64,000 bases of DNA, taken from the NCBI RefSeq assembly GCF_902859765.1, contig NZ_CADIJV010000004.1, positions 186,001 to 250,000 of the forward strand, read 5' to 3'. This document shows positions 38,031 through 55,596 of this stretch, in pieces (within the stretch, counting starts at the first letter, position 1; each line of letters begins with the position of its first letter). This stretch comes from Achromobacter pulmonis (GTDB lineage: Bacteria; Pseudomonadota; Gammaproteobacteria; Burkholderiales; Burkholderiaceae_B). The notes beneath the pieces were generated by a model, which was not told where the DNA came from, did no database searches, and was given only the letters and a program-made list of their open reading frames with translations. Both the position numbers and the translations under genes were made by a program.

Positions 38031-40031
38031 ATGCAACTCCAACACATCCTCAAGCGCGACGGCCGGGTCGTCGCATTCGACCGCGCCAAGATCGCGGCGG
38101 CCATCGCCGCCGCCGGCCGCGGCACCGGAGAACTGGACGCCGACCTCGCCCACGCCCTGACCGGCGCGGTGATCGAGGCGCTGGCCGCCGACGGCAACGT
38201 CTGCCCCGGGGTGGAGACCATCCAGAACCAGGTCGAGGAAACGCTGGTCAAGGCCGGCTACTGGCGCACCGCGCGCGCCTACATCGTCTACCGCGAACAG
38301 CACGCCCGCCTGCGCGCGCTGCGCCACACCCTGGTGGACGTCGAAAGCGCCATGGAGGAATACCTGGAACAGCGCGACTGGCGCGTCAACGCCAACGCCA
38401 ACCAGGGCTACAGCCTGGGCGGCCTGATCCTGAACGTGGCCGGCAAGGTCACCGCCAACTACTGGCTGTCCAACGTCTTCACGCCCGAGGCCGGCCAGGC
38501 CCACCGCGACGGCGACATCCACATCCACGACCTGGACATGCTCAGCGGCTATTGCGCCGGCTGGTCGCTGCGCCAACTGCTGACCGAAGGCTTCAACGGC
38601 ATCCCCGGCAAGATCGAGGCCACGCCGCCGCGCCACATGTCGGCGGCCATCGGCCAGATCGTCAATTTCCTGGGCACGCTGCAGAACGAATGGGCCGGCG
38701 CGCAGGCCTTCAGCTCGTTCGACACCTACATGGCGCCCTTCATCCGCCGCGACGCGATGACCTACACCGAGGTCAAGCAGTGCATGCAGGAACTGATCTA
38801 CAACCTCAACGTGCCCAGCCGCTGGGGCACGCAGACGCCGTTCACCAACCTGACCTTCGACTGGACCTGCCCGGCCGACCTGCGCGAACAGATTCCTTAC
38901 CTCGGCGGCGAGGAAATGCCGTTCGCCTATGGCGAGCTGCAGACCGAGATGGACATGATCAACCGCGCCTACATCGAGGTGATGATGGCCGGCGACGCCA
39001 AGGGGCGCGTGTTCACCTTCCCGATTCCGACCTACAACATCACGCCCGATTTCGACTGGGACCACCCCAACACCGAGCGCCTGTTCGAAATGACCGCGCG
39101 CTATGGCCTGCCGTACTTCCAGAACTTCCTCAATTCCGACCTGGAGCCGCACATGGTGCGCTCCATGTGCTGCCGCCTGCAGCTGGACCTGCGCGAGCTG
39201 CTCAAGCGCGGCAATGGCCTGTTCGGCTCGGCCGAGCAGACCGGCTCGGTGGGCGTGGTGACGGTCAACTGCGCGCGGCTGGGCCATACCTGCCGCGGCG
39301 ACGAGGCCGCCCTGATGGCGCGCCTGGACCATTTGCTGGCGCTGGGCCGCGACGTACTCGAAACCAAGCGCAAGGTGGTGCAGCGCTATATCGACCAGGG
39401 CCTGTACCCCTACACCCGGCGTTACCTGGGCACGCTGCGCAACCACTTCAGCACGCTGGGCGTGAACGGCATCAACGAGATGATCCGCAATTTCAGCGAG
39501 GACGCCGACGACGTCACCACACCCGCCGGCCACGCGCTGGCGGTGCGCCTGCTGGACCGGGTGCGTGCGCGCATGACCGAGTTCCAGGAACAGACCGGCC
39601 ACCTCTACAACCTGGAGGCCACGCCGGCCGAAGGCACCACCTACCGCTTCGCCCGCGAGGACCGCAAGCGCTACCCCGGCATCCTGCAGGCGGGCACCGA
39701 GGCCCAGCCCTACTACACCAACTCCAGCCAGTTGCCGGTGGGCCACACCGACGATCCGTTCGAAGCCCTGACGCTGCAGGAAGCGCTGCAGGGCAAGTAC
39801 ACCGGGGGTACCGTGCTGCACCTGTACATGAACGAAGCCGTGTCGTCGGCCAGCGCCTGCAAGGCGCTGGTGCGGCGCGCGCTGTCGAATTTCCGGCTGC
39901 CGTACATCACCGTCACGCCGACGTTCTCGATCTGCCCGAACCACGGCTATCTGGCCGGACACCACGAGTTCTGCCCCAAGTGCGACGCCGAACTGCTGGC
40001 CAAGCAGGCCTCGTGCTGCGCGCCGGCCTGA
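38031..40031 (+). CDS. nrdD: Anaerobic (class III) ribonucleotide reductase catalytic protein NrdD, lacking its glycyl-radical tail
   Basis: A 666-residue class III reductase making dNTPs from NTPs without oxygen. Residues 1-90 are an ATP-cone regulatory domain (ILKRDGRVVAFDRAKIAAAI). The barrel includes NQGYSLGGLILNVAGK, HDLDMLSGYCAGWSL and GSVGVVTVNCARLG. The C-terminal zinc-ribbon part is ICPNHGYLAGHHEFCPKCD. The protein then ends KQASCCAPA. The R-V-x-G-Y glycyl-radical motif needed for catalysis is absent from this chain; it is encoded by the gene at 40097. ATG 38031 has GGTG upstream; ATG 38019 would add four residues. Confidence 0.93.
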   Translation: MQLQHILKRDGRVVAFDRAKIAAAIAAAGRGTGELDADLAHALTGAVIEALAADGNVCPGVETIQNQVEETLVKAGYWRTARAYIVYREQHARLRALRHTLVDVESAMEEYLEQRDWRVNANANQGYSLGGLILNVAGKVTANYWLSNVFTPEAGQAHRDGDIHIHDLDMLSGYCAGWSLRQLLTEGFNGIPGKIEATPPRHMSAAIGQIVNFLGTLQNEWAGAQAFSSFDTYMAPFIRRDAMTYTEVKQCMQELIYNLNVPSRWGTQTPFTNLTFDWTCPADLREQIPYLGGEEMPFAYGELQTEMDMINRAYIEVMMAGDAKGRVFTFPIPTYNITPDFDWDHPNTERLFEMTARYGLPYFQNFLNSDLEPHMVRSMCCRLQLDLRELLKRGNGLFGSAEQTGSVGVVTVNCARLGHTCRGDEAALMARLDHLLALGRDVLETKRKVVQRYIDQGLYPYTRRYLGTLRNHFSTLGVNGINEMIRNFSEDADDVTTPAGHALAVRLLDRVRARMTEFQEQTGHLYNLEATPAEGTTYRFAREDRKRYPGILQAGTEAQPYYTNSSQLPVGHTDDPFEALTLQEALQGKYTGGTVLHLYMNEAVSSASACKALVRRALSNFRLPYITVTPTFSICPNHGYLAGHHEFCPKCDAELLAKQASCCAPA

Positions 40032-40048
40032 TCTCGCCGCCCACCGCG

Positions 40049-40076
40049 TTTTTTTCCCCGGGCGATCCCCGCCCGG
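40049..40076 (+). other. T-tract and hairpin between nrdD and its detached tail gene
   Basis: A run of seven T (40049-40055) is followed by a hairpin, CCGGGCG-ATCCC-CGCCCGG (40058-40076), then the ribosome site of the next gene. The T-run lies on the wrong side of this stem for a normal terminator, so it may stabilise mRNA or set the ratio of the two proteins. Confidence 0.4.
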
Positions 40077-40096
40077 CCTTTCCCCCCGGAGCCATT

Positions 40097-40279
40097 ATGC
40101 AAACCGTGATCTCCCCCGAAGCCGCCGCCCCGCAGGCGCTGCGCCTGGACGACAGCCAGCGCGTGCGCTGCGAAGTCTGGACCCGCGTCATGGGCTACCA
40201 CCGCCCTGTGTCTTCCTTCAATACCGGCAAACAAGGCGAATTCAATGAACGCCGCTTCTTCGTCGAACAACGTGCCTGA
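40097..40279 (+). CDS. Detached glycyl-radical domain of class III ribonucleotide reductase
   Basis: A 60-residue protein that matches the C-terminal end of full-length NrdD: CEVWTRVMGYHRPVSSFN, then GKQGEFNERRFF. Gly33 in TRVMGY is the predicted radical-bearing residue. The gene is in a different frame from nrdD and 65 bases after its stop. It has its own GGAG six bases before ATG 40097, so it looks like a real separate cistron, not a sequencing frameshift. NrdG, the activase that installs the radical, overlaps it by 35 bases. It probably docks on the 666-residue NrdD, comparable with how GrcA/YfiD repairs pyruvate formate-lyase. Confidence 0.85.
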   Translation: MQTVISPEAAAPQALRLDDSQRVRCEVWTRVMGYHRPVSSFNTGKQGEFNERRFFVEQRA

Positions 40280-41033
40280 AGCGGCCGGCGGCCGCAAGGC
40301 CGTCGCCCGCCCCCAAGCCCGCATGATCCACGCCGCGCCGCCGCGGCCGGCGCCGCAGCCGCTGCCGCGCCACGCCCCCGCCGTGGGCGGCCTGACGCCC
40401 TTTTCCACCGTCGACTGGCCAGGCACGCTGGCCGCCGTGGTCTTCATCGCCGGCTGTCCGTGGCGTTGCCACTACTGCCACAACGCCGAATTGCAGACGC
40501 GCAACGCGCGCTACGACTGGCGCGAGGTGCGCGCCTTCCTGGAAAGCCGCCAGGGCCTGCTGGACGGCGTGGTGTTCTCCGGCGGCGAGCCGCTGAGCGA
40601 ACCGCGCCTGCCGTCGATGATCCGCGAGGCGCGGCGCATGGGCTATCGCATCGGCCTGCACACCGCCGGCATCTATCCGCTGCGCCTGGCCGACGTGCTG
40701 CGCTACCTGGACTGGGTCGGCCTGGACATCAAGGCCGATGCGCAGGGCTATGACGACATCACCGGCCGGCGCGATTCGCACCGGCCCGCGCAGGCCTGCC
40801 TGACCCAGATGCTGACGGCGGGCGTGGATTTCGAATGCCGCATCACCTGGCATCCCGACTGGCTCGACGAGACCCGGCTGCTGGGCCTGGCGCGTGAATT
40901 GGCGCGGCGCGGCGTCAAGCGCTTCGCGGTACAGGGCGCGCGCAGCTGCCCCAGCACCCCGCCGGCGCGCCTGCTCGGCGATCAGGCGCAAGCCCTGCTG
41001 CGCGCCTGGTTCGAGGCATTCACCTATCGCTGA
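40245..41033 (+). CDS. nrdG: Anaerobic ribonucleotide reductase activase NrdG
   Basis: A 262-residue radical SAM protein. The [4Fe-4S] motif is CPWRCHYC at about residues 71-78, followed by VVFSGGEPLSEP, the SAM-binding GGE segment. It generates the glycyl radical on the NrdD tail using SAM and a reductant. The first about 45 residues are an Ala/Pro-rich extension overlapping the upstream tail gene, so translation may be coupled. AAGG precedes ATG 40245. Its 3' end overlaps the convergent MocR gene by 10 bases. Confidence 0.92.
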   Translation: MNAASSSNNVPEAAGGRKAVARPQARMIHAAPPRPAPQPLPRHAPAVGGLTPFSTVDWPGTLAAVVFIAGCPWRCHYCHNAELQTRNARYDWREVRAFLESRQGLLDGVVFSGGEPLSEPRLPSMIREARRMGYRIGLHTAGIYPLRLADVLRYLDWVGLDIKADAQGYDDITGRRDSHRPAQACLTQMLTAGVDFECRITWHPDWLDETRLLGLARELARRGVKRFAVQGARSCPSTPPARLLGDQAQALLRAWFEAFTYR

Positions 41034-42586: not shown

Positions 42587-43876
42587 ATGGTGGCCGATTC
42601 ACGCCTGCCGAACTTCCGCGCCCTCACCCCTGCCCAACGTCTCGCCGCCATCGCCGACGCGGCCGGCCTGACGCCCGAGGAACGCCGGCAACTGGCCGAG
42701 CCCGGCGCGCTCGGCCTGGAACGCGCCGACGGCATGATCGAGAACGTCATCGGCGCCTTCGAACTGCCGCTGGGCGTGGCCGGCAACTTCCAGGTCAACG
42801 GCCGCGACGTGCTGGTGCCGATGGCGGTGGAAGAACCGTCGGTGGTGGCCGCGGCCTCCTTCATGGCCAAGCTGGCGCGCGGGAATGGCGGCTTCGAGAC
42901 CTCCAGCACCCGGCCGCTGATGCGCGCCCAGGTGCAGGTGCTGGGCCTGTCCGACCCGCACGGCGCCCGCGTGGCGCTGCTGCGCGAGCGCGAGCGCATC
43001 GTCACGCGGGCCAACAGCCGCGATCAGGTGCTGATCGGCCTGGGCGGCGGCTGCCAGGACATCGAGGCGCACGTATTCGCCGACACGCCGCGCGGCCCGA
43101 TGCTGGTGCTGCACCTGATCGTCGACGTGCGCGACGCCATGGGCGCGAACACCGTCAACACCATGGCCGAGGCCGTGGCGCCGCTGGTCGAGGAGATCAC
43201 CGGCGGCACGGTGCGGCTGCGCATCCTGTCGAACCTGGCCGACCTGCGCCTGTCGCGGGCCCGCGTGCGCCTGACGCCGCAGACCCTCGACACCCGGGAG
43301 CGCAGCGGCGCCGAGATCATCGAGGGCGTGCTGGACGCCTACGTGTTCGCCGCCACCGACCCGTACCGCGCCGCCACCCACAACAAGGGCATCATGAACG
43401 GCATCGACCCGGTCATTGTCGCCACCGGCAATGACTGGCGCGCGGTCGAGGCCGGCGCCCACGCCTATGCCTGCCGCGACGGCCGCTACACCTCGCTGAC
43501 CCATTGGGAAAAGGACGCCAGCGGCGCCCTGGTCGGCACACTGGAAATGCCGATGCCGGTGGGCCTGGTGGGCGGCGCCACCAAGACCCATCCGCTGGCG
43601 CGGCTGGCGCTCAAGATCATGGACGTGCGCTCGGCCCAGGAGCTGGGCGAAATCGCCGTGGCCGTGGGCCTGGCACAGAACCTGGGCGCGCTGCGGGCGC
43701 TGGCCACCGAAGGCATCCAGCGCGGCCACATGGCGCTGCACGCGCGCAACATCGCGCTGACGGTGGGCGCCGTGGGCGCCGAGATCGACCAGTTGGCGCG
43801 CCGCATGGCCGAGGAGAAGGACGTGCGCGCCGACCGCGCGCTGGCGCTGCTGGAGGAACTGCGGAAACCGGCCTGA
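42587..43876 (+). CDS. mvaA: Class II (degradative) hydroxymethylglutaryl-CoA reductase
   Basis: A 429-residue class II HMG-CoA reductase, like Pseudomonas mevalonii MvaA, which oxidises mevalonate to HMG-CoA with NAD+. The catalytic glutamate lies in [17 protein letters not shown]. The Lys and Asp lie in [13 protein letters not shown], and the catalytic His in [12 protein letters not shown]. The N-terminus [20 protein letters not shown] is typical. GGAG precedes ATG 42587. Two membrane-protein genes follow on the same strand, suggesting mevalonate use. No HMG-CoA lyase gene is in the window. Confidence 0.93.
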
Positions 43877-54939: not shown

Positions 54940-55596
54940 CTAGTGCGGCCGTATCCCGAAGACCGCTTCCTGCCCGGAGAACAGCGCCACGCAAGCCTGG
55001 ATGCGATCGGCGATGGAGCTTTGCGGCAGCGGCGCGGCCAGGCCCAGCGCCATCTGCCGCAGCGGTTCGGCGATGGTCATGGCCAGCAGCAGGCCGGCGG
55101 TCTGACGCGGTTGCTTGATGTAAATCAACCCGCGCGCGGCCAGGGTCTCGAACCACGCGGCCAGCATCGCGGTGCCGCGCTCGATGCCGTTTTCCTGGTA
55201 AAGCGCCAGCAGCGCCGCGCGCGCCGGAAAGTCGGCGGTCAGCAGCCGGAACATGCCGACGGCCTCGGCCGACAGGGCGCGGTCGGCGATCGCCTGCAAG
55301 ACCCGCGCCAGGGCCGGCAGCACCTCGGCCGCGCTGCCGACCTCCTGCGCCATCACCGGCTCGAAGCTGTCGGTCCAGCCGCGCACCACCTGCGCCACCA
55401 GGTCTTCGCGGTTGGCGGCGAAGCGGTAGACGGTCTTCTTGGCCATACCGGCGCGCCGGGCCACCGCCTCCAGCGTGGCGGCGGCATAACCCTCGTTCAA
55501 CAGCAGCCAGGTGGCGGCCTCCAGGATTCCGGCGCGCAATTCGGCGTCAGGCCGGGCGGGACGGCCGCGCGGACGCGGCGGGGGCGACGATGCCAT
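54940..55596 (-). CDS. TetR-family regulator of the PhlG-like locus
   Basis: A 218-residue TetR regulator. The helix-turn-helix is at 35-65 (AAATLEAVARRAGMAKKTVY, RFAANREDLVAQVV). The C-terminal ligand domain ends ACVALFSGQEAVFGIRPH. The basic PPPRPRGRPARPDAE leader resembles AcrR/PhlF-type regulators. It is divergent from the PhlG-like hydrolase and the MFS gene, and an AGAAACG dyad lies in the shared promoter. Confidence 0.9.
   Translation of the reverse strand: MASSPPPRPRGRPARPDAELRAGILEAATWLLLNEGYAAATLEAVARRAGMAKKTVYRFAANREDLVAQVVRGWTDSFEPVMAQEVGSAAEVLPALARVLQAIADRALSAEAVGMFRLLTADFPARAALLALYQENGIERGTAMLAAWFETLAARGLIYIKQPRQTAGLLLAMTIAEPLRQMALGLAAPLPQSSIADRIQACVALFSGQEAVFGIRPH

Follow-up and report, generated by a model that had tools for sequence, protein, structure and literature searches.

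A split nrdD locus in Achromobacter pulmonis encodes a probable two-chain class III ribonucleotide reductase with a separate 60-residue glycyl-radical subunit

A 64,000-nucleotide stretch of an Achromobacter pulmonis genome (contig NZ_CADIJV010000004.1, positions 186,001 to 250,000; hereafter, the window) carries an anaerobic ribonucleotide reductase operon in which the parts of NrdD are divided between two genes, a 666-residue catalytic chain and a 60-residue protein with the glycyl-radical loop, followed by the activase gene nrdG. We conclude that the two proteins very probably form a two-chain class III (anaerobic) ribonucleotide reductase with a separate radical subunit. An initial annotation, made from the DNA letters, had claimed that NrdD stops after its zinc-ribbon region without an R-V-x-G-Y motif and that the motif lies 65 bases downstream in another frame, in an open reading frame (ORF) with its own GGAG site and ATG that overlaps nrdG. 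Both claims were borne out by ORF translation, coordinates, and profile coverage. Specifically, the long chain ends in ...CPNHGYLAGHHEFCPKCDAELLAKQASCCAPA followed by the stop and has no RVxGY anywhere; the small ORF, whose frame differs from that of nrdD, holds TRVMGYHRPVSSFN (RVMGY) and is preceded by the GGAG ribosome site 5 bases ahead of its ATG. The 562 positions of PF13597 are shared out accordingly, with 2–528 in the large chain (E 1e-172) and 532–562 in the small ORF (32.9 bits; cut-off 26.2), and these are the only two PF13597 matches (E <= 0.001) in the entire 5.67-Mb genome. At E <= 1, the NRDD family is the sole Pfam match of the small protein, and its NCBIfam matches are solely NrdD models. 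The activase in the operon belongs to TIGR02495 (NrdG2; 181.9 bits vs a cut-off of 131.15).

Among the features that define a class III reductase, the barrel with its cysteines, the zinc ribbon, and an operon-borne NrdG are all present; the RVxGY loop is encoded by a separate ORF instead of on the same chain. In an alignment of 27 split chains, C175, C380, C381 and C635, H638, C648, C651 are invariant, and comparison with published NrdDs suggests that they are the catalytic cysteines and the zinc ligands, respectively (Table 1). The ratio of nonsynonymous to synonymous substitution rates (dN/dS) of the large chain is 0.10 across 20 loci of the window's group.

Table 1. Features of the nrdD locus, in positions of the window
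Feature	Positions	Strand	Remarks
nrdD catalytic chain	38031..40031	+	666 residues: ATP-cone (5-92), NRDD barrel, C175, finger loop MCCR (C380/C381), zinc ribbon C635/H638/C648/C651; no radical loop
Zinc ribbon codons, C-x2-H ... C-x2-C	39933..39983	+	15 residues from ribbon to chain end; putative ligands, by analogy with published NrdD zinc sites
Spacer, 65 nt	40032..40096	+	predicted 7-bp stem 40058-40076; GGAG 40088-40091
Stand-alone small glycyl-radical protein gene	40097..40279	+	60 residues; predicted radical Gly33 = GGC at 40193-40195
nrdG, radical S-adenosylmethionine activase (TIGR02495)	40245..41033	+	start inside small ORF; overlap 35 bases
FNR/Anr/Dnr-like box TTGACCGGCATCAA	37929..37942	+	upstream of nrdD; box end 88 bases before nrdD start

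The small ORF has the properties of a gene in its own right. A start codon of its own was found in 158 of 159 small ORFs, the exception (L113) lying at a contig end, and a Shine-Dalgarno motif (at least 4 bases, 3–12 bases upstream) precedes 154 of these 158, against 21% of random positions given the same best-of-n choice. The small ORF is under purifying selection, with a dN/dS of 0.20 in its own frame, whereas the two alternative frames give 1.4 and 2.8 (20 loci from the window's group). The radical glycine, the arginine three residues before it, and the tyrosine after it are present in 154 of 154 small proteins, although the search patterns included the radical motif and FNxGK; R-11, R+19, and F+22 are likewise found in 154 of 154, and the N-terminus is variable. 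On the strength of in-frame selection, own starts, and Shine-Dalgarno motifs, we reject a pseudogene.

The split arrangement prevails in the window's genus, where 33 of 37 genomes are split, two are continuous (G009 and G021), and two have no match. In a sample of the order, PF13597 matched in 95 of 300 genomes; a tally of rows gives 76 split, 5 with a continuous chain of the same family, 12 with other NrdD types only, 1 with a contig-cut chain, and 1 with a small match alone, where "split" denotes a chain whose match stops short of the radical module or (5 of the 76) crosses one stop. The last of these genomes (G189), in which a 6.9-kb contig holds the small gene together with nrdG, was set aside. 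Since table rows may share an open frame across a stop, the stop was checked on the DNA, and it precedes the motif in 62 of 62 further genus and order regions (61 by script, L374 by eye). At the level of the class, 321 genomes searched with the large-chain model NF006126 yielded 25 genomes, 22 of them split and 3 continuous, and at the level of the phylum the small-protein profile matched 17 of 398 genomes, continuous chains among them. In 14 of 25 genomes from one genus of family f55, the small gene is flanked by those of the large chain and the activase.

When GTDB contigs were scanned with the small-protein alignment, at least 590 stretches were returned, 573 of them confirmed. We kept 80; at 78 of these loci, large-chain sequence occupies an ORF distinct from the small one (the chain being broken in L102 and L110), and no large-chain sequence was found at the other two kept loci (L083 and L113). 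The initial annotation had named synteny with nrdD and nrdG as a check, and the order nrdD, small gene, nrdG indeed recurs in Alpha-, Beta-, and Gammaproteobacteria and in Campylobacterota, including complete plasmids of Cupriavidus, Azospira, Shinella, Sulfuricurvum, and Bradyrhizobium. The records of those plasmids label the small gene "nrdD, anaerobic ribonucleoside-triphosphate reductase"; annotation pipelines therefore do detect it. Four genomes have the small gene elsewhere than directly behind the chain: in G043 it lies together with nrdG ~9 kb away from nrdD on one contig, and in G093 both are on a different contig, with nrdD well inside its own. In the other two (G024 and G192) the small gene is also on another contig, but the pieces lie at contig ends, and we did not count them as dispersed. 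One genome of the window's genus (G015) has two split operons (L167 and L168), one of them divergent, and on a Thiothrix fructosivorans plasmid (L053) the large chain occupies two unannotated ORFs beside an annotated small gene and nrdG.

Large-chain ORFs that start by query position 110 and reach position 640 numbered 167 (154 distinct: 135 split, 13 continuous, and 6 undecided). Near-copies were thinned from 152 to 118 and three sequences of a distant NrdD type (L005, L036, and L172) were omitted for a FastTree tree of 118 large chains, built with the radical part excluded. Its rows comprise 101 split, 13 continuous, and 4 undecided chains, many of them collected via the small protein, and five changes between split and continuous are needed. 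The starred branches alone force at least two; the tree does not settle how many fissions and re-fusions took place, because 40 of 115 inner branches are open, and FastTree issued long-branch warnings for L201, L176, L055, and L198. Continuous chains include the outgroup rows L176, L198, and L201 as well as Actinomyces (L174). Relatives with a chain continuous at the same site had been named in the initial annotation as grounds for rejecting the split; such relatives do occur in 2 of the 37 same-genus genomes, but the tree places both (G009 and G021) among the window's split relatives. Because of this nesting we read them as re-fusions, and the history looks like an old fission with later re-fusions in the window's genus. 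We take the re-fused chains as evidence, supplied by nature, that the small protein corresponds to the radical loop of NrdD itself.

The small gene also occurs alone on viral contigs, for which our evidence comes from IMG/VR. A scan with the same small-protein profile returned 194 stretches, 186 of them confirmed, and a scan for the large chain returned 20, with 4 confirmed, a contrast that is only indicative because the pattern sets of the two scans differ. We kept 80 small-protein loci (L217–L296), fetching up to 6 kb on each side, although many contigs were shorter. Neither large chain nor activase was found within the fetched locus in 79 of the 80, and one has the large chain. Among 37 records of at least 27 kb taken at full length, the PF13597 match is confined to the last ~33 profile positions in 36, and one also has the chain; absence of nrdD from such records is no proof, because the records may be fragments. 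The 80 loci encode 61 distinct small proteins, with a start in 78 of 80 and a Shine-Dalgarno motif in 60 of those 78, and dN/dS is 0.16 in frame vs 1.8 and 2.0 elsewhere (216 pairs, 65 loci; 0.19 outside the search patterns).

Scanning of 18 neighbouring proteins from 11 of the 80 viral loci revealed a portal and a head-maturation protease (L236), a DNA polymerase and a clamp loader (L217), a tape measure (L230), tail proteins (L257), and a helicase (L290), along with the less specific metallophosphoesterase (L242) and reverse transcriptase (L259); among the same 18 proteins, no neighbour of known function was found at L228, L246, L252, or L286. The small protein matches phrog_4132, a phage family without assigned function, with the radical loop within positions 114–162 of 179. 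Three small-protein queries of INPHARED found no close stand-alone copy, only places that are annotated as NrdD or unannotated (ANMV-1, PQ006092, and MT835493), and no FNR-like box was found within 250 bp upstream of any of the 80 viral small genes. In bacteria, extra copies were also observed away from the operon: G282, which has its own split operon, carries a second small gene next to phage lysozyme, tail-chaperone, and integrase genes, and G293 has two, one near AcaB, topoisomerase, and DnaB genes and the other near an NlpA lipoprotein gene. Two further loci differ in layout. One viral contig (L312) has the order large chain, activase, small gene, and on Allochromatium vinosum pALVIN01 (L177:3480-3689) a lone small gene adjoins a CHAP-domain gene, with no nrdD annotated in the locus.

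From these features we infer how the parts would work together, from docking and radical transfer to exchange, its benefit, and phage use. The 666-residue NrdD would provide the ATP-cone, the zinc ribbon, and the barrel in which the catalytic cysteines sit; the 60-residue subunit would contribute the glycyl-radical loop. NrdG would put the radical on Gly33 of a small subunit docked at the zinc ribbon, and transfer to the finger-loop cysteine would follow, as it does in NrdD made of one chain. A large chain that lacks the loop should be unable to work without the small protein; because the radical part is a separate 7-kDa protein, an oxygen-cleaved copy could be replaced cheaply, without remaking the large chain, as the initial annotation proposed by analogy with GrcA, and phages might feed their own copy to the host enzyme. 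An exchangeable part gains plausibility from the copies located on viral contigs, within a prophage-like region, and close to conjugative-element genes, though these do not prove repair. We lean slightly towards a free-standing, exchangeable cofactor, which cells keep apart and which phages and mobile elements carry alone to power or revive the host enzyme in infection, as a ribonucleotide reductase counterpart of Y06I of phage T4.

The split may also be the outcome of a neutral fission, in which the gene came apart, neither piece could be dispensed with, and neither the split nor the equally neutral re-fusions brought any advantage; we consider this history possible but rather unlikely. That a continuous chain works can be seen from its persistence in the window's genus and in family f37, and the two pieces are nearly always found in one operon, leaving little room for independent control. 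Such neutrality is harder to reconcile with the dominance of the split state in the tree (101 of 114 rows of known state, many of them found through the small protein) or with the lone small genes on viral contigs with no nrdD in view and, in bacteria, beside phage genes and AcaB, which suggest a use for the detached part on its own.

A different role for the small protein, as a regulator or inhibitor of NrdD or as a servant of another glycyl-radical enzyme, would suit its small size and variable N-terminus. We judge it improbable, given that neither the radical glycine nor its surroundings vary, no other radical loop is present on the large chain, the small part is fused to NrdD in continuous relatives, and the gene adjoins nrdD and nrdG. 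Slightly less probable still is translational recoding, by which a frameshift or stop read-through would yield a continuous chain from both ORFs. One frame is shared by 34 of 131 pairs, and a single stop separates the ORFs in 17 named loci, as recoding would allow; those stops, however, are of all kinds (11 TGA, 4 TAA, and 2 TAG), all three relative frames are represented (58/39/34), 18 pairs overlap, the gaps span −41 to 2322 nt, nearly every small ORF has its own start and Shine-Dalgarno motif, and in G043 the small gene is kilobases away. An assembly or sequencing error in the window is already contradicted, and practically negligible, because the arrangement recurs in independent genomes, including finished plasmids and genomes assembled as a single contig.

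The initial annotation had argued that a frameshift would not create a stop, a hairpin-bearing spacer, and a ribosome site. The separate starts, Shine-Dalgarno motifs, three frames, and selection strongly support two genes, but the hairpin did not hold up as a special feature: the spacer folds no better than its shuffles (z score −1.1; 32 of 200 shuffles as good). In relatives' spacers of 40–320 nt, 15 of 62 gave z < −2 against mononucleotide shuffles.

Several observations weigh against the two-chain enzyme. Continuous relatives exist, two of them in the window's genus, and 4 of 158 small ORFs have no Shine-Dalgarno motif. Two loci (L366 and L371) have no ATG between the large-chain stop and the motif; the small ORF of L366 has a GTG start behind AAGGAA, and the start position in L371 is ambiguous. 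The profile of the small protein matches solved NrdD structures weakly, with Gly33 aligned at E 0.9 to Gly621 of Thermotoga maritima 4coi, a residue named for that NrdD in PMC4493059. AlphaFold was given L070 translated across the in-frame stop that it naturally has, together with an alignment of 36 rows; the model left the small part unplaced (predicted local distance difference test score 29–33 over residues 701–727) and supports only that the modelled large chain has a class III fold. Finally, a 1999 paper by Siedow reportedly described a 76.2-kDa NrdD of Cupriavidus necator in which G650A abolished anaerobic growth, and the null is said to have been taken as proof that G650, on the long chain, carries the radical.

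The genes of C. necator suggest another explanation for that null. On pHG1 of strain H16 (L050:2962-5335) the system is split into an NrdD of 676 residues and 76.2 kDa, presumably the protein of that paper, as both the mass and the residue number 650 agree, followed by a 66-residue small protein encoded by H16_RS32675 and by NrdG. Residue 650 is the glycine of C646-P-T-H649-G650-Y in the zinc ribbon, and the RVMGY glycine lies in the next gene. Since G650 adjoins a putative zinc ligand, damage to the ribbon would explain the G650A null without a radical on G650. In CH34, nrdD is Rmet_5137 and nrdG is Rmet_5139 according to PMC2864759, which cites the 1999 paper; Rmet_5138 is left between them.

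Pseudomonas aeruginosa probably also carries the split system. Genome G1056 (L335), one of the 14 with the small gene in the family f55 genus and one that we would assign to this species from the following likenesses, has a chain of 675 residues and 75.8 kDa, a small ORF of 48 residues, and an upstream box, TTGACGCAGATCAA, that matches the published P. aeruginosa nrdD promoter box. The latter is CTGACGCAGATCAA in PAO1, with T in first place elsewhere (PMC5645315); P. aeruginosa NrdD, PA1920, is listed at 76 kDa (PMC12284477), and PA1919 is nrdG (PMC13086522).

In the window, the FNR-like box upstream of nrdD suggests anaerobic induction. The pattern TTGAYNNNNATCAA has two sites there (three matches, the palindromic site being counted per strand), against a mean of 0.03 matches in shuffles, and TTGA[CT]N4[AG]TCAA is present in the 400 bp ahead of the gene at 59 of 147 nrdD loci vs 0 of 147 intragenic stretches of the same length. 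The second site in the window, TTGATGTAAATCAA, is also a perfect FNR-like site (55115-55128). Elsewhere in the window, the ORF at 42587-43876 (+) by eye resembles a degradative 3-hydroxy-3-methylglutaryl-CoA reductase and adjoins a MocR-like regulator gene.

We found no description of a split NrdD in searches of the open-access PMC literature. If the two-chain enzyme is real, many denitrifying and facultative proteobacteria, C. necator H16 and probably P. aeruginosa among them, would have class III reductases that are three-gene systems with a radical subunit that was overlooked or filed as "nrdD", the large chain and nrdG alone, whether purified or transferred, would be inactive, and the published radical-site assignment in C. 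necator NrdD would need correcting. It would also suggest a likely function for phage family phrog_4132. PMC8683613 regards spare parts for other glycyl-radical enzymes as possible, with only two, both for pyruvate formate-lyase, validated, and the split would bear on this question of spare parts beyond pyruvate formate-lyase.

Among known systems, the C. necator H16 class III enzyme is the same split system. T. maritima NrdD (4coi) has the same fold, order of parts, and two-cysteine finger-loop motif (PMC4493059), but is one chain. The split class II reductase of P. aeruginosa, NrdJa plus NrdJb, likewise has a C-terminal module as a second gene (PMC4520616, PMC5704485); that module, however, belongs to another class and is a cysteine-rich zinc domain for reduction, not a radical carrier (PMC5704485). 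Escherichia coli GrcA/YfiD and T4 Y06I resemble the small protein as small, stand-alone carriers of a radical loop that are activated by the partner enzyme's activase, and a phage version exists (PMC8683613). Their partner, in contrast, is pyruvate formate-lyase with its own radical domain, whereas here it would be a ribonucleotide reductase without a radical loop; the loop of the small protein is not of the pyruvate formate-lyase type, nor is the protein a spare part, as its partner, the large chain, lacks a loop that it could replace. The arrangement thus appears to work like a class III reductase with a GrcA-like part and falls fully under neither definition.

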